IMG/VR virus record: IMGVR_UViG_3300033144_005720
Location: 1-23,773 of that record
Direction: 5' to 3' (one strand)
DNA: 23,773 nt
DNA from: a virus
The translations under genes and the position numbers were made by a program. Shown in pieces: positions 2,521 to 23,773 of the stretch (positions within the stretch are counted from its first letter, which is position 1; every line of letters begins with the position of its first letter). The notes beneath the pieces were generated by a model. That model saw only the letters and a list, made by a program, of their open reading frames with translations. It was not told the DNA's origin and did not search any database.

Positions 2521-3270
2521 TTATGTTCGTGGACCCTCTCCACCAGCTGATATAACGCTTTTATAACCATCAATAACTTGTGCTTGTTTAGCAAATGAAG
2601 CAGCAAATTTAGAACATTTTTCCAATACCCAAGGTTCATGCCATGCGTAATCTACATTGAATTCGATCTCAAGATCTAATCTACCAACTGTTTCAACATC
2701 ACTTGTAAATAAATCTTGTGGATCTTTTCCTGGAAATACACCATCATAACATGCATAATATTCTACCGTTCTAGCATCAGGCGCTGTAGTCCAGTAATAC
2801 ATAAGACCGGCATAAGTTTTCTTTGTATATCCTTCGCCTTCTGTTCCATCTACTAATTCAGTAATACCAGTTCTATAATCTCTTATCATTTTAACCCAAG
2901 AATGCATAATATCAAGAATTGGGGTTTTATTGAATTCTAAGAATTTTACAGATACAGTATTTCCATAGTCGATGTTTCCCGGCACAGCCCATTTTACTCC
3001 ACCAAGTCCAGTATACTCAATTTTATTTAGAGTTCCACCTGGGGGTGTAACCGATAGACAGGATGCAGCAAGTACTGCTTGTATTTCTCCAATGTTTGCT
3101 AAACCACTAATCCCTTGTCTAGTATAAGTTAATAAACCAGCTGGCATTTTATCAAACCAAATGAAATGATAACCTGTAGTGTAAGGGTCTGCAACCCCTG
3201 CATTTGTTCCACCAAACTTTCTTGTTAAAATATTTTGTCCAAGTTCGGAAAATGAATATCTCATACCCAT
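2521..3270 (-). CDS. Tail tube protein (T4 gp19-like)
   Basis: This 249-residue protein forms the inner tail tube in contractile tails. The supporting features are the N-terminal phrase GYHFIWFDKMPAGLL and the central strand-helix block (VSVKFLEFNKTPILDIMHSW followed by VKMIRDYRTGI), both typical of gp19-type tube proteins in large myophages. The late strands include RLDLEIEFNVDYAW. At 249 residues it is longer than T4 gp19 (163 residues), consistent with loop insertions on the tube exterior. ATG at 3270 is preceded by AGAGGAGACAAAACA. It lies downstream of the HAD gene. In the canonical order it would follow the sheath at 7343-9295, but the plus-strand cassette and the HAD gene now separate the two. 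Confidence 0.8.
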   Translation of the reverse strand: MGMRYSFSELGQNILTRKFGGTNAGVADPYTTGYHFIWFDKMPAGLLTYTRQGISGLANIGEIQAVLAASCLSVTPPGGTLNKIEYTGLGGVKWAVPGNIDYGNTVSVKFLEFNKTPILDIMHSWVKMIRDYRTGITELVDGTEGEGYTKKTYAGLMYYWTTAPDARTVEYYACYDGVFPGKDPQDLFTSDVETVGRLDLEIEFNVDYAWHEPWVLEKCSKFAASFAKQAQVIDGYKSVISAGGEGPRT

Positions 3271-3950: not shown

Positions 3951-4343
3951 ATGTCAAAAAATAGCGGTGGAGGAATAGGGATAGGAACTATTATTATTGT
4001 ATGTGTTATCGGGTATAATCTATTTTTTAGTGACGATGATAAAGATACAGATGTAAAAGAAATTGATGTTGAAGTCCAAGACCAATACATTTCAGATGAA
4101 ACGAAAGAGGAAGTTAAAGAGACCGTGCGTGAAGCTATCACCTCAGCTAAAAAAGCTATAAAAGAAATGAAAGAGAAAGTTAAAAAAGAACTAAATAAAA
4201 AGGAAGAAGGTGAGAAAATTGACGAGACACAAGATAAGCAATCGCCAAAAAAAGAAGTTGTTAAAAGGCGAGAAGAAAAAATGGAAACTCTCAGACCTCT
4301 GGAAGAAGATAAACCAGAAGAAAAGGAGTTCAAACGATTATGA
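3951..4343 (+). CDS. Membrane-anchored, highly charged coiled-coil protein
   Basis: This 130-residue protein opens the plus-strand cassette. Residues ~7-25 form one transmembrane helix (GGGIGIGTIIIVCVIGYNLF), followed by an acidic linker (DDDKDTDVKEIDVEVQD). A long Lys/Glu-rich helix then runs from about 45 to 110, probably a coiled coil, with a charged, disordered end. The orientation is probably N-out with the charged domain in the cytoplasm, or the reverse; sequence alone does not settle it. The AAAGGAGG leader is strong. Its stop overlaps the start of the radical SAM gene (ATGA at 4340-4343), so the two are translationally coupled and probably made together. A scaffold or membrane tether for the next gene product is an inference. 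No family recognised. Confidence 0.75.
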   Translation: MSKNSGGGIGIGTIIIVCVIGYNLFFSDDDKDTDVKEIDVEVQDQYISDETKEEVKETVREAITSAKKAIKEMKEKVKKELNKKEEGEKIDETQDKQSPKKEVVKRREEKMETLRPLEEDKPEEKEFKRL

Positions 4344-5350
4344 TAAAACCGAAATTCAATAAGTTTTTTGGTAACTCTGACTACGAACTATTTTTTGACA
4401 CAACAAATGGTATTGAAGTAATGCGAGGAACTAAGGGGAAAGAAGATCCATTCTCTTTATATCTTCCTTCGTTGATAGATGTCGGAGTTATGGGACATTG
4501 TAAACATAAATGCGAATTCTGTTATCAAGGACATTCAAACAAACCCAATATGAAGATCGAAGATTTTAAATCAATTATAGACCAAGTTAAACATCACACC
4601 AATCAGGTGGCGTTGGGCGGTAGGGGTGATCCGAATCAACATGAGAACTTTGAAGAAATAATCTCATATGCTCGTAAGAATGGAGTTGTCCCAAACTACA
4701 CAACAAGCGGTATTGATTTAACAGACAAACAAATCGAAATATCAAAAATGTGTGGTGCAGTTGCAGTTAGTGATTATGGAAAATCTTATACATATAAAGC
4801 TCTAAGAGATCTAATGGATGCCGGAGTAAAAACTAACATTCATTTAATGTTTACTGACACCTCGTATTTTAAATCACTTATAATTCTATATGGACATAAT
4901 CCTTGGAAACCCAGAGATAATGAAAGTCTTGTAGACATTGACAGATTAAATGCTGTAATATTTTTATTATTTAAACCAGCTGGTGCAGGAGCTAATCTTA
5001 AGTGGAGACCCAGTATGTATCAATTTTCAACTTTTGCAGAACTTGTATTCAAAACAAAATCTAAGTTTAAAATTGGAATGGATAGTTGTTTGGTCAATCA
5101 TGTCTTAAGTTATGTTGAACCAGATAAACTTCAAAAGATGTCAATTGATACATGTGAAGGTGCAAGAATGTCAGCATACATCACTCCCGATATGAAAATG
5201 ATGCCTTGTAGCTTTGCAGAGTCGAGTATATGGGCCGTTCCAATAAAAGGTGATAAAGACATTGACTATATCTGGAATCGTTCAATGAACTTCAAATCAT
5301 TTAGAAAAATATTAAAGAGTAATCAAAAATCTTGTCCATTGGAACTATGA
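4340..5350 (+). CDS. Radical SAM enzyme with SPASM-like C-terminal cysteines
   Basis: This is a 336-residue radical SAM protein. The cluster motif is CKHKCEFC (C54, C58, C61; CX3CX2C) in GVMGHCKHKCEFCYQGHS, which would ligate a 4Fe-4S cluster that cleaves S-adenosylmethionine. A TIM-barrel-like series follows: ALGGRGDPNQHENF (~91-104, GGE-type position), NYTTSGI and TNIHLMF. Four further cysteines (C250, C272, C290, C332) lie in the C-terminal third. C272 and C290 frame CEGARMSAYITPDMKMMPC, the usual look of a SPASM/twitch auxiliary-cluster domain. Such enzymes commonly modify peptides or proteins. The chain ends four residues after C332, so the last cysteine-rich segment is short for a SPASM domain. 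It is coupled to the upstream membrane-anchor gene and followed after 12 nt by the four-TM gene. The fold is certain to me; the substrate is unknown. Confidence 0.88.
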   Translation: MIKPKFNKFFGNSDYELFFDTTNGIEVMRGTKGKEDPFSLYLPSLIDVGVMGHCKHKCEFCYQGHSNKPNMKIEDFKSIIDQVKHHTNQVALGGRGDPNQHENFEEIISYARKNGVVPNYTTSGIDLTDKQIEISKMCGAVAVSDYGKSYTYKALRDLMDAGVKTNIHLMFTDTSYFKSLIILYGHNPWKPRDNESLVDIDRLNAVIFLLFKPAGAGANLKWRPSMYQFSTFAELVFKTKSKFKIGMDSCLVNHVLSYVEPDKLQKMSIDTCEGARMSAYITPDMKMMPCSFAESSIWAVPIKGDKDIDYIWNRSMNFKSFRKILKSNQKSCPLEL

Positions 5351-5362
5351 AAGGAGACAATA

Positions 5363-5737
5363 ATGCAACATCAAAATACTATAAAAGAAGAAATAAAACA
5401 ATATAACCTACAAAATTATATTGAAATTTTTATCTTTAATGTGATGATTGTCCTTGCAATAATTGGATATAGGGGAGAAGTATGGGCTGCAATAATTTAC
5501 ATGTGTGCAGTACTTATGTTTATGCTTACTTTCATATTCACTATATTAATAATGAAGTGGAAAGTTGATCCATCAGCTATTTATTTCTCTATATACTTTC
5601 TACATCTTCTATTATGTGTAGCATTTGGATGGTGGGGGTTGACTGCATGTTGGTTTATCATACTAGTTTACGCAGGGATAGGAATGGATCGTTGTCTAAA
5701 AAGTATGGAGGCAAAAAAAGATGAAAATAAAAACTGA
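5363..5737 (+). CDS. Four-helix integral membrane protein
   Basis: This 124-residue protein has four predicted transmembrane helices: about residues 20-36 (IEIFIFNVMIVLAIIGY), 42-65 (AIIYMCAVLMFMLTFIFTIL), 73-92 (IYFSIYFLHLLLCVAFGWWG) and 93-108 (TACWFIILVYAGIGMD). It has an amphipathic N-terminus and a short Lys-rich cytoplasmic tail (KSMEAKKDENKN). AAAGGAGACAATA lies just ahead of the ATG. It overlaps the next gene by 17 nt. I do not recognise a family. It does not look like a classical holin in length or charge pattern, and it sits away from the lysis-type genes. In context it may be a membrane partner of the radical SAM enzyme or of its modified product; this is inference. Confidence 0.75.
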   Translation: MQHQNTIKEEIKQYNLQNYIEIFIFNVMIVLAIIGYRGEVWAAIIYMCAVLMFMLTFIFTILIMKWKVDPSAIYFSIYFLHLLLCVAFGWWGLTACWFIILVYAGIGMDRCLKSMEAKKDENKN

Positions 5738-6227
5738 CTTTGTAACCAATTCTAGTTCTTCATCATTCATTGTAATTTGGCCTTGTAAGATTACCAAAAC
5801 TGAAGATCTACAACCATACATATCCAGACCTGATTTTGCTAGAATTATTTTTAACGATGCAATGAATCAAAGACCCAAAAAAGTTAGTCTAAGATGTATA
5901 CCTAAAATGGTCGAAGAAATTACAAGCGGTTATATTGATGATATTCAAAGTCTTTGGGATTATGAAAAAGAATTCTGTATAAGAGAAGGGATATCAAAAG
6001 ATGACCTTTGGCGTAATCGAGCATGGCAGGAATTATGCCAAGAAGAAGGAGAAATTAACCAAAATAAACAGGCAAGAGAAAAAGTTAAGAAGTTTATCGA
6101 ACCATATAAGGATAAAGGATATGTCTACTATTTTAGCTACGCTGATGAAGATGGTGGAATCTTTTCTGAACTCGAACACAAAAATGACTGGGGCGAACTC
6201 CCGTATATCAGAATTAGCCACCACTAA
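5721..6227 (+). CDS. Protein with N-terminal FVTNSSSSSFIV motif
   Basis: This 168-residue protein starts MKIKTDFVTNSSSSSFIV, a short Lys-rich opening followed by an Asn, five serines and Phe. I remember this N-terminal signature on otherwise dissimilar phage and bacterial hypothetical proteins, but I know of no established function. The middle is a charged helical region with three scattered cysteines (C22, C57, C77 region). The C-terminus has a second conserved-looking block: YFSYADEDGG, then LEHKNDWGELPYIRISHH. The start at 5721 overlaps the four-TM gene by 17 nt and has GGAGG 9 nt upstream. The gene ends 10 nt before the next start. Being in the operon of a SPASM-like radical SAM enzyme makes it a candidate substrate. 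That link is inferred and untested. Confidence 0.75.
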   Translation: MKIKTDFVTNSSSSSFIVIWPCKITKTEDLQPYISRPDFARIIFNDAMNQRPKKVSLRCIPKMVEEITSGYIDDIQSLWDYEKEFCIREGISKDDLWRNRAWQELCQEEGEINQNKQAREKVKKFIEPYKDKGYVYYFSYADEDGGIFSELEHKNDWGELPYIRISHH

Positions 6228-6237
6228 AGAGGATAAT

Positions 6238-6768
6238 ATGAATATGAATATTGATGATCCTCAGGATCATAGAGAATTAAATACACATATTAAAAATTAT
6301 GTTATGGCAGAGTTCGTTGCCGTCCCACCCGACTTTGATTTCAAAAGTCATTTGACTATGAGAGAACAAGTTGGAATGTTTAAAATTAAAGATGTTAATT
6401 TAACCCAAGTTAAAATTATATCAGATGCAGTTGCAAGTTCTCCTGTTTTCAGCACTTTAAATAATGCAACATTAAATCCCACATCATGCTTCTTTTTCCT
6501 ACAGTTAATGGGAGAACTAAATCTAGTCCTCAAAAAAATTGATAATCCATTAAGAAGAGGTCAGGAACAATATAAAGAATTTGCAAAAAGATGGGAAAGA
6601 GATCAAGGTGCATATGTTCGGGGGCAAGATGTTGAAAGGATAAGTTTCCTTATTATCAACATTGTTCCTTTGCTGGATCAAACTATTATTGATGAAGCAT
6701 GGGAGTCATTAAATGAATTGAAAAAATATCAAGATGAAATTAATAACATGAAATGTAAATTTGATTAG
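6238..6768 (+). CDS. Helical cytoplasmic protein of unknown function
   Basis: This 176-residue protein starts at ATG 6238 with AAAGAGGATAAT just upstream. The open frame continues further upstream to 6001, but that part lies within the previous gene in another frame. The protein appears mostly alpha-helical: a polar N-terminus (MNMNIDDPQDHRELNTHIKN), a hydrophobic central helix (TSCFFFLQLMGELNLVLKKI) and a C-terminal pair of helices with Glu/Lys heptads (EAWESLNELKKYQDEINNMK). There is no signal peptide or recognisable catalytic motif. Its fifth place in the cassette, between the NSSSSSF protein and the CreA-like protein, suggests a shared transcript. An adaptor or regulatory role is possible but nothing in the sequence proves it. 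Confidence 0.7.
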   Translation: MNMNIDDPQDHRELNTHIKNYVMAEFVAVPPDFDFKSHLTMREQVGMFKIKDVNLTQVKIISDAVASSPVFSTLNNATLNPTSCFFFLQLMGELNLVLKKIDNPLRRGQEQYKEFAKRWERDQGAYVRGQDVERISFLIINIVPLLDQTIIDEAWESLNELKKYQDEINNMKCKFD

Positions 6769-6781
6769 GAGGAAAAGTATT

Positions 6782-7285
6782 ATGTCCAAAAGATGGATGA
6801 CCAATTGTATTATATTTTTACTTATAGTTCTGCTATTCACTATAGTGGTAGCAGTTTCATACGCAGGAACACCTGTCGTTCAAATAGGTGAAGTTGTTTG
6901 CATCAAAAGACTTTTTCAGGGTAATGATAAAATTAAAATTATTCGAGTTCAAGATCCTGAAAATCCTTTTGTATCAATCTTCTTTACAACAGTTAAGACT
7001 GGAAAAATAATTGCGTGGGCCGATCCAAGCAACACATCAATCGCTGCCAGATTAACCGGCAAAATTCCTATTGATGGAAATGGAAAACGTATTATCAATA
7101 AAACTACTAACAAAGATATTGCTCATATACGAAAATCTATTGGATCAAAGGTAATGAAAATTGCTAGATTTTATGACAAGAAAATGGACACTCTAACGTA
7201 CTTGGTATATACTACAAAGTTGTTGGATGGTTCATTAAAACATTCGTTGTCAGTTGTTCCATTGGGAAAACCATTATCTCCATAA
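6782..7285 (+). CDS. creA: CreA-like exported protein
   Basis: This 167-residue protein resembles the bacterial CreA family, small periplasmic proteins of unknown biochemical role. It starts at ATG 6782 with AGGAGGAAAAGTATT ahead. Residues 1-29 form a signal peptide (basic RWMTN, hydrophobic core, likely cleavage after VSYA). The mature part follows CreA block by block: QIGEVVCIKRLFQGNDKIKI, a QDPENPFVSIFF segment matching the family's DDP-V, a TGKIIAWADPSNTSIAA block matching the GGI-GLAEDTSDAAIS block of E. coli CreA, and the end VMKIARFYDKKMDTLTYLVY and LKHSLSVVPL. It has lost the second cysteine of E. coli CreA (C in the CQQ block is A here), so the usual disulphide is probably absent. 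It is the last gene of the cassette and is followed by a bidirectional terminator. It was probably acquired from a proteobacterial host and diverged. Confidence 0.7.
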   Translation: MSKRWMTNCIIFLLIVLLFTIVVAVSYAGTPVVQIGEVVCIKRLFQGNDKIKIIRVQDPENPFVSIFFTTVKTGKIIAWADPSNTSIAARLTGKIPIDGNGKRIINKTTNKDIAHIRKSIGSKVMKIARFYDKKMDTLTYLVYTTKLLDGSLKHSLSVVPLGKPLSP

Positions 7286-7342: not shown

Positions 7343-9295
7343 TTAAACAATAAAGAAGTTCAGTTCAATCTGTTCTACAGTTCTTGTAGGTTCTAATGTT
7401 ACGTTGACGTGGAATTTCTTTGTACGTCTTTCATAATCTGTTGCACCTACATCTACTGAGAAGTTTGTCAAACCACGTTTCTTTCTAATCACTTCAAGGA
7501 AGTCAACTAGATTACCTGCTACAAGAGACCATGTGATTTCATCGTTTTGTTCAAAGATGAAGAAACGACAGAAATCTTCAAACGCTCTCTTGATGTACAG
7601 AACAAGTCTGACAATATTCAAGTCTTGTAAAGCACTTGCTTTTGCTTGAGATGTTAACTGCCCCCAAACAACATACCCAGGATTGAATTTAACAATTGGA
7701 TTTAGTTGCTTCAGATATAGTTGATCTCTTTGTCCAAGTCTTGGATTATAACGAAGTTCTTTAATTGTGTCAATTGCTGCTCTATTGAAACCAGCTGCTG
7801 CGAACCAAAGTTCAGCCACAGTATCATTTCTTGGTAGGATATATGACATATGATAAACTGGTGAGAACCACACATCTTGTCCTGTAAATGGGTCAAATAC
7901 TTTATTGTATGATTCATATAGAGCCACAAAGTAATTATTAAATGTATTGGTATTATTTCTTGTAGCAAGGGCAAGATTAACACTTGCATTATCCCCATTA
8001 TCAAGAATACCAACACAGTCACGTCTTGTTTGACATAATGTACTGATTGCAGATTTAACATCGGCTGGGTAACCACAATCCCATACCATTGAGAAGTAAG
8101 TGTTTTCAGTATCAAGTACGTTATCATCAATGATACCATTATATGCTTGATTTAGAAGTTGTACAGCTTCAGCAGTTTCTAAAGAACCATCATCTTGTAA
8201 TAGATCGCCATCACTTCCTTTTCTTAATGGCACAGGGTCAGCTGATGTAAATGCTTGAGCAACTGAACCATATGATTTCTTAATGCGATATTCAATATCA
8301 GATGCATCATCAAAATCTACTACAGATCCATTCCATGATTGTGTTGCTAATGATATTTCAGAATAGACTGTAATTTCTTCATCATCCGCTCCAGCAGTAG
8401 CTCCACACCAACCCCAGATTTCAGTTCCTCTGGCATCTTTAGCAATAATAACATAATCACCTGTACCAGTTCCTTCCCAATCAGAGAAGTCTTGTTTGAT
8501 ATCTGTGAGATCAGCAGAACCAGCAGTTAAGGTAACTCTTATATTAGTATCAATATCTTTATCATAAGTTCTGATATTTTCATCATATCCAGCTGAGAGA
8601 CGATCTGTATCCTTATCAAAATACATTTCTGCTTTAAGGATTGCTGAATATGTATTTAAAACATCCAAAATCCAGATTGAATCGCCCGCACTATCTTTTG
8701 CTGTTTTCTCAAATGAAACTTCAAACGATTCAATTATAGCATCTTGCCCATCAGATTGTCTTTCATAGACATCTAAAATGTATTGATCCCAAACAGTTGG
8801 GTTAGATACTTCCGTTAATCTTACACCTATTTTGTTATACCATTGTCCTCTTCCAATTGGATATAAGAAGCAAATTGGGTATGCATTACCGTCTTGTGCT
8901 AAATTAGTCTCAAGCTCATCAACTGTGTTCATACCTTCTACAAATGTAATTTGCATACCAGCAGTTGAGTCAGCGGGATTAACTGTTGCATCAATCCTTA
9001 TATTTGAGTATGTAGCATTATCAGAAAGAACTCTCATGTAAAAAAGAGCTCCTGATTCTCCTAAATAATTATACGCACAATATGGACCTTGTCCATAGTT
9101 TTTGCCGTATGTCGCAATATTTGGTTCTCCATATTCTGAAATATAGTCGGCTCTTGAACCAATAAATTTTAAAACGTTATCTTCACCCTTTTCATTAAGT
9201 GCTGCAATAAAACCAATTGTTGAAGGTACAGCTTGTACGAATTGAGAAAGGTCGATAATTTTTGAAAAAACTCCTGGCGAGACATTTGCTGCCAT
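7343..9295 (-). CDS. Tail sheath protein
   Basis: This 650-residue contractile tail sheath subunit forms the outer tail tube that shortens on infection. The N-terminus has the sheath signature VSPGVFSKIIDLSQF with STIGFIAALNEKGEDN, used for subunit linking. The C-terminal third carries the conserved core: DVKSAISTLCQTRRDCVGIL, RLGQRDQLYLKQLNPIVKF, YVVWGQLTSQAKASALQDLN, VRLVLYIKRAFEDFCRFF and the final FHVNVTLEPTRTVEQIELNF. The middle (residues ~170-360) is a variable insertion domain, probably on the sheath surface. AGGAGGAAAAAAAC precedes ATG 9295. In T4-like order the tube should follow. Here the plus-strand accessory cassette and the HAD gene lie between sheath and tube, so the cassette looks inserted into a tail operon. 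Confidence 0.92.
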   Translation of the reverse strand: MAANVSPGVFSKIIDLSQFVQAVPSTIGFIAALNEKGEDNVLKFIGSRADYISEYGEPNIATYGKNYGQGPYCAYNYLGESGALFYMRVLSDNATYSNIRIDATVNPADSTAGMQITFVEGMNTVDELETNLAQDGNAYPICFLYPIGRGQWYNKIGVRLTEVSNPTVWDQYILDVYERQSDGQDAIIESFEVSFEKTAKDSAGDSIWILDVLNTYSAILKAEMYFDKDTDRLSAGYDENIRTYDKDIDTNIRVTLTAGSADLTDIKQDFSDWEGTGTGDYVIIAKDARGTEIWGWCGATAGADDEEITVYSEISLATQSWNGSVVDFDDASDIEYRIKKSYGSVAQAFTSADPVPLRKGSDGDLLQDDGSLETAEAVQLLNQAYNGIIDDNVLDTENTYFSMVWDCGYPADVKSAISTLCQTRRDCVGILDNGDNASVNLALATRNNTNTFNNYFVALYESYNKVFDPFTGQDVWFSPVYHMSYILPRNDTVAELWFAAAGFNRAAIDTIKELRYNPRLGQRDQLYLKQLNPIVKFNPGYVVWGQLTSQAKASALQDLNIVRLVLYIKRAFEDFCRFFIFEQNDEITWSLVAGNLVDFLEVIRKKRGLTNFSVDVGATDYERRTKKFHVNVTLEPTRTVEQIELNFFIV

Positions 9296-11275: not shown

Positions 11276-11641
11276 ATGAATCCCAATAATCAAAAGGGTT
11301 TCACTCTAGTTGAAATTCTTGCAGTCCTAGTTATTTTAGGAGTGATTGTGGGAATGGCAACTGTCAAGTTTATATCTATTGATAAAAATGCGGAGATGCA
11401 AGGGATCAAAATGGCAATTGTTGATCTTAATGGTCAAGAGATGGAAACTTGGACTGAGGGAAAATTCAGTGGAGGATGGACCGATGCAGAAATATTTAAT
11501 CGAGTTGATCATCAGATCAAAAGTTATAAATGGATTAGTTTAAATCCTTCTGGCGGAGAATTAAAGTTCGGAGAAACAACTGAACAACTCACTAGAGCAT
11601 TATCAACTTCACAAGAGCCTGCTCGATGGAGTTTAAACTAA
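11276..11641 (+). CDS. Type IV prepilin-like / pseudopilin protein
   Basis: This 121-residue protein has a canonical class III (prepilin) signal, NPNNQKGFTLVEILAVLVIL. A short basic leader ends in G8, where prepilin peptidase would cut before F9. Glu is at position +5 of the mature protein, and a ~20-residue hydrophobic helix anchors the subunit in the inner membrane or the pilus core. The mature 113-residue part has a small, Cys-free globular domain (ending SLNPSGGELKFGETTEQL and RALSTSQEPARWSLN). That is shorter than most major pilins and closer to minor pilins or pseudopilins. The AAAGGAGG leader is strong. It is the only gene in its plus-strand unit and ends in a structured terminator. 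It needs host prepilin peptidase. A role in altering host pili, and so blocking competing phages, is a reasonable inference. Confidence 0.85.
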   Translation: MNPNNQKGFTLVEILAVLVILGVIVGMATVKFISIDKNAEMQGIKMAIVDLNGQEMETWTEGKFSGGWTDAEIFNRVDHQIKSYKWISLNPSGGELKFGETTEQLTRALSTSQEPARWSLN

Positions 11642-21247: not shown

Positions 21248-23773
21248 TTATGATACTCTCCAAATAGTTAATCTTGCTCTTCTGATGTTTACTCCTGTAG
21301 TTCCCACATCCCAATAATCAAGATCTATGTCTACATCACCACTTAAAGTTGCTTCATAAAAACCTGACATTGGATACCAATAACTATCGTCCCACTTGCT
21401 TGTAGAGTTGCCTCCCATTTCAGCAATATCTGTTGCATCATCAATTTGTACTCGAGCATTAAATATACAATCTTTATCATTATCTTTAGAAAATTCAAAC
21501 CCCCACTCAATATGATAATCACCACTTGGCAAACTCGTTTTTGATAGACTAACTTTTTCTTGTGGAACATCACTGTTCGTAGAACTTTCTCCATCAGAAG
21601 AAGCATATCCATATTCACTTCCAAATACAGATAAACCAGAAGTAGAATCAATCGTAACTTCAGATGTAGAATCAGCAGTAATGTTAAGATTACCTGTAAA
21701 GTTTAATGTCTCAAATGGACTTCCAGAAACAATTACTCCATCTTCTTTAATATTAATTGTAGAACCTGAACCTGCTGGTCCTTGTGCCCCATCAGCTCCT
21801 TTAACTCCATCTAATTTAAGAACTTTGAATGTACCATTAACACCAGTATCTCCAGTAAAACTTTCATACTTTAATTGTACTGTAATGTAATCTCCGCTAG
21901 TTAATGTTGCAATAAAGCTATTATTTAAATGGTTATAAATATATGGACTGCCATCAATTGAATCATCGTAAATTGCTGTTACTTTTGAATGTGAACCATT
22001 AAGTGCTGTAGCACCATTTTTCTCTACTTGTGCATTAGCATGACAAGGTTCCCATTGTGTGAGTGATGCAGCATCAATATTAAAATCATAACTGACAAGA
22101 TAAGTCCCATCTTCTTTTATATTGATTCTTTCTGTGTTTGAATTATCATGTTCAACTATATCATCATCAGATTCTTCATCTGTTTGATTAAAAGTAATAT
22201 CTACATATGCAACAGTTAAAGTATAAGCTGTTGATCTTCTTGCCTGAACTACTGCCATCTTTTCTGAAAATATATTTTCAATGGTTACCTGACTTGTAGA
22301 ATCAGCAGTAACCCTCATATTTTCAAAATTTAATACTTCAAATGGATTTCCTGCAACAAATGATCCATCCTCTTTAACATTTATTGTAGATCCTGATCCA
22401 GGTGGTCCTTGAATCCCACTGGTTCCTGATGTACCAGCAGATCCTATATCACCTTTTATACCACTAACTTTCATTATAGCATAAGTACTTTCTGGTATTA
22501 ATATATTTGCTCCACCATCTGAAATTGCTTGAAATGTAAAATAATCTCCGGCGGTCATGTCATAGAAGAAAACATTTCCAGCATCATTTGTCTCGTCATC
22601 TTCACTAATTATTCTTTCACTTCCAGGAATAACAGTTATTCCATTTAATAAAGCACGAAAGTCGAATTGATTCTCATCTGCGTCAGCATCTATTGAAGCA
22701 GCATAAGTTATCATATATAAACCGTCTTCTTTAATATTAATTCTTTCAGTATTTGTACTATCATGAGAAATAATATCTGGTTCACTTTCAACATCAGTTA
22801 TGTCAAAAACTATATCTGTAAAAGATGTTGTTAATGTATAATCAGTTGACCTTCTAACTTGAACAACTGCTAAATCTCCTTCTAATGGTGAGGTTCCTGA
22901 TGAACCTGATGTTCCAGCTTCCCCACTTGAACCGCTTGTACCTGTAGCACCTGTAGCACCAGATGATCCTGATGTACCACTTGAACCTGAAGTTCCGCTA
23001 TCTCCTGAACTACCTGAAGTTCCTGCTATACCACTTGAACCACTTGTACCTGTAGCACCAGATGATCCTGATGTACCACTTGAACCAGAAGTTCCAGCTA
23101 CCCCACTTGAACCTGAAGTTCCACTTGACCCACTACTTCCAGGAGCGGTTGCTAAAGGAGTGGTGATTCTTGAATAGTACTCCGTTCCCTCATAATATAA
23201 ACAAACTTGTCTATCTGAAGCAGCTGTAGTTAATGCATAATATCTAATTTCTAATCTTGAATCAGGATCAACTAAAAAATCGCCTTGTGTAGTTTCGGTT
23301 GTATATAGAGTAGGTGTTCCGACATTTATTTCAGGAGTTAATGTTTGAAATAAGAGGTTTGATGTAGTATCTGTAAACTCATATACCTTAATTAAAACTT
23401 TAGTAACACCAGATGGATTATTAACAGTTAGATATGTTTTAAATGACCATACTCCAGCATCCCAATTTCCAAGATTTGGAACTCCAGTATCAGTAACATA
23501 CTGATCAATTAATATCTCTCCATCACTAAGTTTTAAGTTCACACAATCCATATCTTGTGGATCATTATTTGGAATTGGTCTAAGTCGTTCATAACCAGTA
23601 CTATCAGATACTTCATTATGTAACCAGTATGTTGCTCCACCAATTGCCCCAGCTTCTCCAGATGTACCTGAACTACCAGATGAACCAGAAGTTCCGCTTA
23701 TCCCCGATGATCCTGAACTACCAGATTCACCACTAGAACCTGAAGTTCCTGCTATACCACTTGAACCAGAAGT
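21248..23773 (-). CDS. Tail fibre with collagen-like repeats, 5' end outside window
   Basis: At least 841 residues are in view; the frame is open at the right edge, so an ATG at 23551 is internal and not the start. The order is a collagen-like run (residues 1-44), a ~165-residue beta domain (~45-211, including YWLHNEVSDSTGYERLRPIP and LTVNNPSGVTKVLIKVYEFT), a second collagen-like run (212-294), then two related C1q-like sandwiches. The sandwiches begin VVQVRRSTDYTLTTSFTDIV and VVQARRSTAYTLTVAYVDIT. Each is followed by a short collagen linker and a STIN-KEDG-x-F-E-LNF module. A last beta domain (FGSEYGYASSDGESS to RARLTIWRVS) closes the chain. This is a modular fibre, probably trimeric through the Gly-x-x repeats, with the C-terminal domains as likely receptor binders. 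Confidence 0.85.
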   Translation of the reverse strand, partial: TSGSSGIAGTSGSSGESGSSGSSGISGTSGSSGSSGTSGEAGAIGGATYWLHNEVSDSTGYERLRPIPNNDPQDMDCVNLKLSDGEILIDQYVTDTGVPNLGNWDAGVWSFKTYLTVNNPSGVTKVLIKVYEFTDTTSNLLFQTLTPEINVGTPTLYTTETTQGDFLVDPDSRLEIRYYALTTAASDRQVCLYYEGTEYYSRITTPLATAPGSSGSSGTSGSSGVAGTSGSSGTSGSSGATGTSGSSGIAGTSGSSGDSGTSGSSGTSGSSGATGATGTSGSSGEAGTSGSSGTSPLEGDLAVVQVRRSTDYTLTTSFTDIVFDITDVESEPDIISHDSTNTERINIKEDGLYMITYAASIDADADENQFDFRALLNGITVIPGSERIISEDDETNDAGNVFFYDMTAGDYFTFQAISDGGANILIPESTYAIMKVSGIKGDIGSAGTSGTSGIQGPPGSGSTINVKEDGSFVAGNPFEVLNFENMRVTADSTSQVTIENIFSEKMAVVQARRSTAYTLTVAYVDITFNQTDEESDDDIVEHDNSNTERINIKEDGTYLVSYDFNIDAASLTQWEPCHANAQVEKNGATALNGSHSKVTAIYDDSIDGSPYIYNHLNNSFIATLTSGDYITVQLKYESFTGDTGVNGTFKVLKLDGVKGADGAQGPAGSGSTINIKEDGVIVSGSPFETLNFTGNLNITADSTSEVTIDSTSGLSVFGSEYGYASSDGESSTNSDVPQEKVSLSKTSLPSGDYHIEWGFEFSKDNDKDCIFNARVQIDDATDIAEMGGNSTSKWDDSYWYPMSGFYEATLSGDVDIDLDYWDVGTTGVNIRRARLTIWRVS
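22892..23140 (-). repeat. Collagen-like Gly-x-x tandem repeat, block 2
   Basis: About 27 Gly-x-x triplets, mostly GSSGTSGSSG with A, V, I, D and E variants, are encoded by near-repeated 18- to 27-nt units. The DNA repeats could shorten or lengthen the fibre by recombination. Confidence 0.85.
23642..23773 (-). repeat. Collagen-like Gly-x-x tandem repeat, block 1 (continues past window)
   Basis: About 14 Gly-x-x triplets of the same GSSGTSG type reach the window edge. The DNA at 23741-23773 nearly matches units in block 2, so assembly at this end could be affected by the repeats. Confidence 0.8.

Follow-up and report, generated by a model that had tools for sequence, protein, structure and literature searches.

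A radical SAM enzyme family linked to a 16-residue N-terminal tag on many unrelated phage and prokaryote proteins suggests a protein-labelling system

As a rule, a radical S-adenosylmethionine (SAM) maturase has a single target, which is either a short peptide or a motif in a protein. SuiB and SkfB (PDB 5v1s/5v1t and 6efn) are SPASM radical SAM enzymes that mature short precursors of ribosomally synthesised and post-translationally modified peptides (RiPPs) encoded adjacent to them. anSME (4k36-4k39), a radical SAM enzyme with auxiliary clusters, alters the Ser or Cys residue of a conserved motif, C/S-x-P/A-x-R, found in one protein family, and PqqE and the mycofactocin maturase MftC have the SPASM fold. 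Here we describe a gene pair in a 23.8-kb fragment of a tailed phage (IMG/VR record IMGVR_UViG_3300033144_005720, positions 1 to 23,773, hereafter the window), in which the plus-strand gene of a 336-residue radical SAM enzyme (4340..5350) is followed on the same strand by that of a 168-residue protein (5721..6227) opening with the 16-residue N-terminal tag MKIKTDFVTNSSSSSF (5721..5768). As with SuiB and SkfB, the presumed target is encoded close to the enzyme; unlike their short precursors, it is a tag on full-length proteins of 61 to 717 residues, and sequence identity to the two maturases is 13-15%. The partners are full proteins with a median of 136 residues, and because of this difference in substrate length the enzyme is not regarded as a RiPP maturase. 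In contrast to the anSME motif, neither Pro nor Arg follows the serines in the tag consensus, and the tag is found on many unrelated protein bodies. By analogy, the enzyme would work like a peptide-modifying radical SAM maturase.

The models for PqqE and MftC are among the top NCBIfam models for the enzyme (E 6e-11 to 1e-20), but the family scores only 42-74 bits, far under the curated cut-offs of 381 and 265. The phage families matched by the enzyme (phrog_7293) and the tagged protein (phrog_7397) are both listed as of unknown function and without a link between them. Gene 228 of the RB43-like Raoultella phage Rpl1, which belongs to the same family as the window enzyme, is a predicted peptide-modifying enzyme for which the passage concerned names no substrate (PMC9960720). 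Modification of a peptide effector by a radical SAM enzyme has also been predicted for vWA-MoxR/FtsH ternary conflict systems, which have another operon make-up and, in the passages dealing with them, no described tag (Kaur et al. 2020, PMC7159879). No description of the enzyme-tag pair was found in curated families (Pfam, NCBIfam) or in the openly licensed literature, subscription journals lying outside the search, and the motif strings NSSSSSF, TNSSSS, FVTNSS and FVSNSS retrieved no relevant open-licence paper.

The initial annotation, made from the window sequence, had read the two genes as a possible enzyme-substrate pair and proposed counting radical SAM genes near proteins with the NSSSSSF start. 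We searched viral contigs and prokaryote genomes with a codon-degenerate DNA pattern for MKI[KR]xxF[VI]xNSSSSS[FY]. From the matches listed, 117 prokaryote loci were picked by tag DNA alone, and all their open reading frames (ORFs) were clustered without prior choice. The top cluster was one radical SAM family, found within 8 kb of the tag in 90 of the 117 loci and confirmed by its hidden Markov model (HMM). The other loci belong to 26 genomes, 18 of which have a clear copy of the enzyme elsewhere (E<1e-79) and three a partial copy. Among tag-picked viral contigs of at least 100 kb, the enzyme is present in 22 of 26. Approached from the other side, 21 viral loci (L033-L053) were fetched solely by similarity to the window enzyme; the tag adjoins the enzyme in 17 of them, and L033 ends at the enzyme. 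The nearest tag gene lies on the strand of the enzyme in all 163 cases, with a median gap of 3 bp in prokaryotes and 15 bp in viruses.

Genome samples drawn without regard to the tag gave the same picture. Five of 243 genomes of one class carry the enzyme, and a tag gene lies near it in all five; the exact tag pattern occurs in three genomes of this sample, all of them enzyme carriers, and the other two carriers have near-tags beside the enzyme. With the seed omitted, the exact tag is present in 2 of 242 genomes, both among the four enzyme carriers, for which we calculate a chance probability of ~2e-4. A family-level sample added five carriers, four of them with tags within ~1.5 kb of the enzyme, the exception being a truncated enzyme match. 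Pooled, these unbiased samples have the tag beside the enzyme in 8 of 9 enzyme-bearing genomes. Enrichment of radical SAM genes near NSSSSSF proteins is thus strong, and the proposed pairing is supported by a linkage reaching far beyond the window. We rejected chance enrichment through the commonness of radical SAM genes: one family accounts for the association, no tag lies beside a generic SPASM enzyme (G878, E 1e-27), and few genomes have the family at all (5/243, 1/296 and 6/299, seeds counted).

The tag reads MKI[KR]x[DG]FV[TS]NSSSSSF or, in a broader form, M-K-[IV]-[RK]-x-[DG]-F-[VI]-[TS]-N-S-S-[ST]-x-x-[FY]. The codon-degenerate search pattern was found in more than 119 viral and more than 117 prokaryote stretches, and tags occur in phages, Clostridia, Bacteroidales, Alphaproteobacteria and archaea. 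A reversed control pattern had zero matches in 243 genomes, and the motif was confirmed not to be a product of chance. A second detection scored every start codon of the fetched loci with a position-specific matrix. The scores are bimodal, with tags above ~25, background in the inspected loci below about -9 and just two values between 5 and 25. Widening the DNA pattern to CGN arginine codons recovered two tags in RB43 and five in D479. The logo of 513 tags shows N10 and S11 in every sequence, S12 in 512 and F7 in 508, while positions 14 and 15 tolerate S, T, C, A or N. Reading all loci in six frames yielded 577 copies of the core motif; 575 copies have an initiation codon exactly six residues upstream, and the remaining two likewise stand at protein starts. 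The DNA of the tag is varied in nearly every copy (200 distinct 48-mers in 205 viral copies) and uses both serine codon families (TCN and AGY), which argues for selection on the protein.

Beyond the tag, the proteins have little in common. The 475 complete tagged proteins fall into 130 clusters at E<1e-3, including 85 singletons. When 91 cluster representatives were aligned, the consensus MKIRxGFVSNSSSSSF was followed by no further consensus, the sole invariant columns being M1, K2, N10 and S11. Pfam recognises two of the 91 body representatives, one of them as a BRCT domain, and another tagged protein has LRR_5 repeats. The clearest case is a 548-kb phage contig (G295, locus L308, G295:C1:85000-95500), where eleven consecutive tagged genes come right after the enzyme: none of the 55 body pairs shows detectable similarity, whereas on average 13.1 of the 16 tag residues are identical. 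Duplication of one protein family as the origin of the common N-terminus is ruled out for most pairs by these figures and the 130 clusters, although very distant kinship among some of the bodies is possible. The tagged protein of the window matches phrog_7397 (E 1e-9) and shares with its family a C-terminal ...YxDEDG...EH...ISHH pattern (44-sequence alignment A3). A search of the phage collection for untagged homologues of one zinc-type tagged body gave zero matches.

The tag varies together with the enzyme. The tree built from 121 enzymes divides into four clades: I and III consist of phages, with the window in III, II of bacteria that have STAND genes, and IV mostly of Clostridia. Clade I tags have R4-G6-S9 in 23/23, clade II tags T14 in 24/24, clade III tags K4 in 30/31 and T9 in 31/31, and clade IV tags R4 in 41/41 and D6 in 40/41; the characteristic stretch is RxGFVSN in clade I and KxDFVTN in clade III. 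Mapped on the tree, positions 4, 6, 9 and 14 require 9, 5, 5 and 10 changes; over 60 shuffles per position, the minima were 30, 22, 25 and 27. Window-family bodies occur with enzymes of two clades, and their tags are R-G-S in 3/3 cases with clade I and K-x-T in 21/21 with clade III. Tag variants therefore track the enzyme clade and not the body family. Such a pattern is expected if the enzyme recognises the tag, and it indicates that the N-terminus is the part recognised and probably also the part modified.

Regarding the enzyme itself, the cysteines C54, C58 and C61 (CX3CX2C) and C250, C272, C290 and C332 are present as the initial annotation had listed them; C138 comes in addition. The first three form the predicted motif for the SAM-binding [4Fe-4S] cluster (codons 54-61, 4499..4522, plus strand). 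The family conserves the listed cysteines, with C54, C61, C250, C272, C290 and C332 invariant in 71 sequences, and the last four (codons 250-332, 5087..5335, plus strand) are invariant in alignments A1, A2 and A4. They likely bind one auxiliary Fe-S cluster, of a twitch-like kind. Spacing of the SAM-cluster cysteines is unusually variable within the family (alignment A1): the window enzyme has CX3CX2C, that of RB43 has CX7CX2C, and in the clostridial enzymes the second gap is longer. The enzyme matches Radical_SAM PF04055 with E 2.4e-8 and 34.8 bits (cut-off 29.5) and so belongs to the radical SAM superfamily. Bacterial family members exceed the cut-offs of both SPASM models, PF13186 and TIGR04085; the window enzyme reaches 17.2 bits with the SPASM model, under the cut-off of 21.5, because the phage clade to which it belongs has no C-terminal CxxC...GGC part. 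The window enzyme ends after the fourth auxiliary cysteine. It matches phrog_7293 (E 2e-26) and the HMM of the tag-linked family (E 2.5e-115) and has a tag gene nearby; by these profile matches it belongs to a single radical SAM family for which neither Pfam nor NCBIfam has a name. The prokaryotic viperin model (NF038283/pVip) was not matched, at 21.7 bits against a cut-off of 180.

The AlphaFold2 model of the enzyme has a mean predicted local distance difference test (pLDDT) score of 96, and its best PDB match by VIA is SuiB (Z 25.3 over 306 residues), followed by SkfB (23.6), PqqE (20.1) and anSME (19.5), all of them peptide- or protein-modifying. SuiB and SkfB match over nearly the full chain, and the Z scores assign the enzyme to the peptide-modifying radical SAM fold of this type. 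A profile search of PDB sequences likewise retrieved SuiB, SkfB, PqqE and BtrN, the matches over the four-cysteine part being BtrN, PqqE and SkfB. The tagged protein was modelled with a pLDDT of 92, falling to ~47 for residues 1-10; this low confidence suggests that the tag starts as a flexible end and continues into the first strand, Asn10-Ser13 lying where the two meet. Foldseek against PDB and BFVD gave no usable match for the body of the tagged protein, nor did VIA, a result that does not by itself make it a new fold.

In bacteria, the pair has a further partner. In clade II it follows a large STAND-type NTPase with the Walker A motif AGQGKTN in 29 of 31 loci, as compared with 0 of 52 in clade IV. 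The N-terminal domains of these NTPases are interchangeable (trypsin-like, SWQSD-type, SMEK or membrane). PADLOC assigns the STAND core to Avs2 (E 1e-20) and a frequently preceding metallo-beta-lactamase (MBL) hydrolase to Avs1a/LmuA; it has no model for the enzyme-tag pair and covers the candidate operon just in parts. Clade II operons thus share with AVAST (Avs) systems the STAND core, often the MBL hydrolase, and the swapped N-terminal domains. The window is unlike AVAST, as it contains no STAND gene. Because of their gene content, the clade II operons look like a putative anti-phage defence. The gene order in prokaryote loci L174, L176, L183, L204, L217, L220, L249, L258, L264 and others is MBL hydrolase, STAND NTPase with a trypsin, TIR-like, SMEK or transmembrane (TM) part, untagged small protein, tagged protein of 138 residues ending in GGW or NYW, radical SAM enzyme and a protein of ~310 residues. 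Plasmids of Agrobacterium (locus L312), Rhizobium and Rhodobacter have the same order, with SMEK-STAND, the untagged small gene (in most), a gene of the size of the tagged one, and the radical SAM gene. RB43-like phages (~160-174 sequenced records) retain the enzyme together with two tagged genes, ~20 kb away from it. In RB43 (HE858210.2), which like RB16 is an ordinary laboratory phage of E. coli, the enzyme gene occupies 92307-93452 and the tagged genes 68052-68516 and 71936-72445.

As members of the enzyme family lie almost always beside tag genes, the enzyme very probably reads and modifies the tag. We consider it probable that the cassette is a protein-labelling system. The enzyme would bind the 16-residue tag, predicted to be flexible in the folded substrate, and a 5'-deoxyadenosyl radical together with the auxiliary Fe-S cluster would alter it, most likely at the invariant Asn10-Ser11-Ser12. 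Candidate chemistries are oxidation of Ser to an aldehyde, as by anSME, or a cross-link within the tag, as by SuiB or PqqE; since no cysteine is invariant in the tag, a thioether of the sactipeptide type is improbable. Many different proteins would in this way gain one common chemical handle. Since one tag recurs on many unrelated bodies, the label would be general and the bodies would supply the function.

Several observations weigh against labelling of the tag by the enzyme. Five tag genomes and four viral contigs have no enzyme that was found, though all of them may be incomplete, and no nearby tag was seen in three of the viral loci fetched by enzyme similarity (L040, L050 and L053). A 462-kb phage (LR756500, L005) has a divergent enzyme, with no tag found in the whole record, and is either an exception or uses a different tag. 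Co-inheritance of linked neighbouring genes could explain part of the covariation, and a shared fold need not mean a shared reaction.

Among other explanations, the one that survives best takes the tag as a leader-like recognition sequence only, with the enzyme modifying residues of the body, in the manner of RiPPs that combine a conserved leader with a variable core. The closest folds, SuiB and SkfB, are RiPP maturases that bind leaders, and in the enzyme model three short N-terminal strands could pair with the tag strand. Conservation of Asn10, Ser11 and Ser12 nevertheless goes beyond the needs of simple docking, and one common target in the body is unlikely because the 130 body clusters, including BRCT and LRR_5 proteins, have no residues in common; on balance we regard this explanation as unlikely. 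The tagged proteins might instead work with the enzyme or activate it, as docking subunits, electron donors or regulators, the true substrate being another molecule. Strict adjacency would suit a complex too, as would the near-constant company of a STAND NTPase in clade II, but a single enzyme accompanied by up to eleven different bodies, and tagged genes ~20 kb from the enzyme in RB43, make this quite improbable. Short N-terminal targeting sequences are known on unrelated phage proteins, an example being the T4 capsid-targeting sequence, and the motif could be a signal of that sort (for virion packaging, localisation or turnover) whose linkage to the enzyme is incidental, through shared mobile islands; set against an association that spans phages, Clostridia, Bacteroidales, Alphaproteobacteria and archaea, and tag variants that track the enzyme tree, its chances appear very slim. 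A DNA or RNA element (recombination site or translation control), which the location at gene starts might suggest, is ruled out by the codon variety of the copies.

In the window, both ORFs lie where the initial annotation had placed them, and the product of 5721-6227, two genes past the enzyme, has the start MKIKTDFVTNSSSSSFIV and the end LEHKNDWGELPYIRISHH reported there. The tag gene begins 371 bp past the last base of the enzyme gene. The pair is part of a plus-strand cassette (3951-7285) inserted among minus-strand structural genes, which include a tail-tube-like protein (2521-3270) and the tail sheath (7343-9295). The cassette opens with an acidic protein with one hydrophobic, TM-like segment (3951..4343, plus strand), encoded directly 5' of the enzyme in the phage clade of the window; a gene resembling it precedes the enzyme in L037, L040 and L053. 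Between the enzyme and the tagged gene lies a hydrophobic four-TM protein (5363..5737, plus strand) with a counterpart in L037. The initial annotation had given the four-TM and one-TM neighbours a part in delivering or using the product; as a general role this found no support, since the four-TM gene is missing from most relatives, where the tag gene begins ~15 bp 3' of the enzyme, and so is not a conserved part of the pair. Downstream follow an uncharacterised protein recurrent in the phage lineage of the window (6238..6768, plus strand), with homologues in 11 viral loci and counterparts near the enzyme in L037 and L053, and, at the cassette end, a CreA-family protein with an N-terminal hydrophobic segment (6782..7285, plus strand; PF05981, E 6e-26), whose gene keeps the same position near the enzyme in L037 and L053. 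Elsewhere in the window, the product of 11276-11641 (plus strand), alone among minus-strand structural genes, begins like a type IV pilin (MNPNNQKGFTLVEILAVLVILGVIVG), and a minus-strand gene at 21248-23773, truncated where the window stops, encodes a protein with long collagen-like repeats of the GTSGSSG type.

If the tag is indeed labelled, phages would label sets of accessory proteins, from 1 to 11 genes, and one bacterial clade would use the label inside STAND-NTPase operons that resemble anti-phage defence. A more far-reaching idea, which we put forward tentatively, is that of a portable code: the enzyme would install the same new modification on any bearer of the tag, in phage accessory batteries and STAND immune operons alike, and the label may be contested between phage and host. 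One enzyme would then serve a tag common to more than 100 unrelated bodies in phages, bacteria and archaea. A real label would be a new protein modification and would explain why hypothetical proteins of phages and bacteria are alike in their first 16 residues only. It would also provide protein engineering with a portable enzymatic tag, and would add a radical enzyme to what appear to be STAND anti-phage operons.

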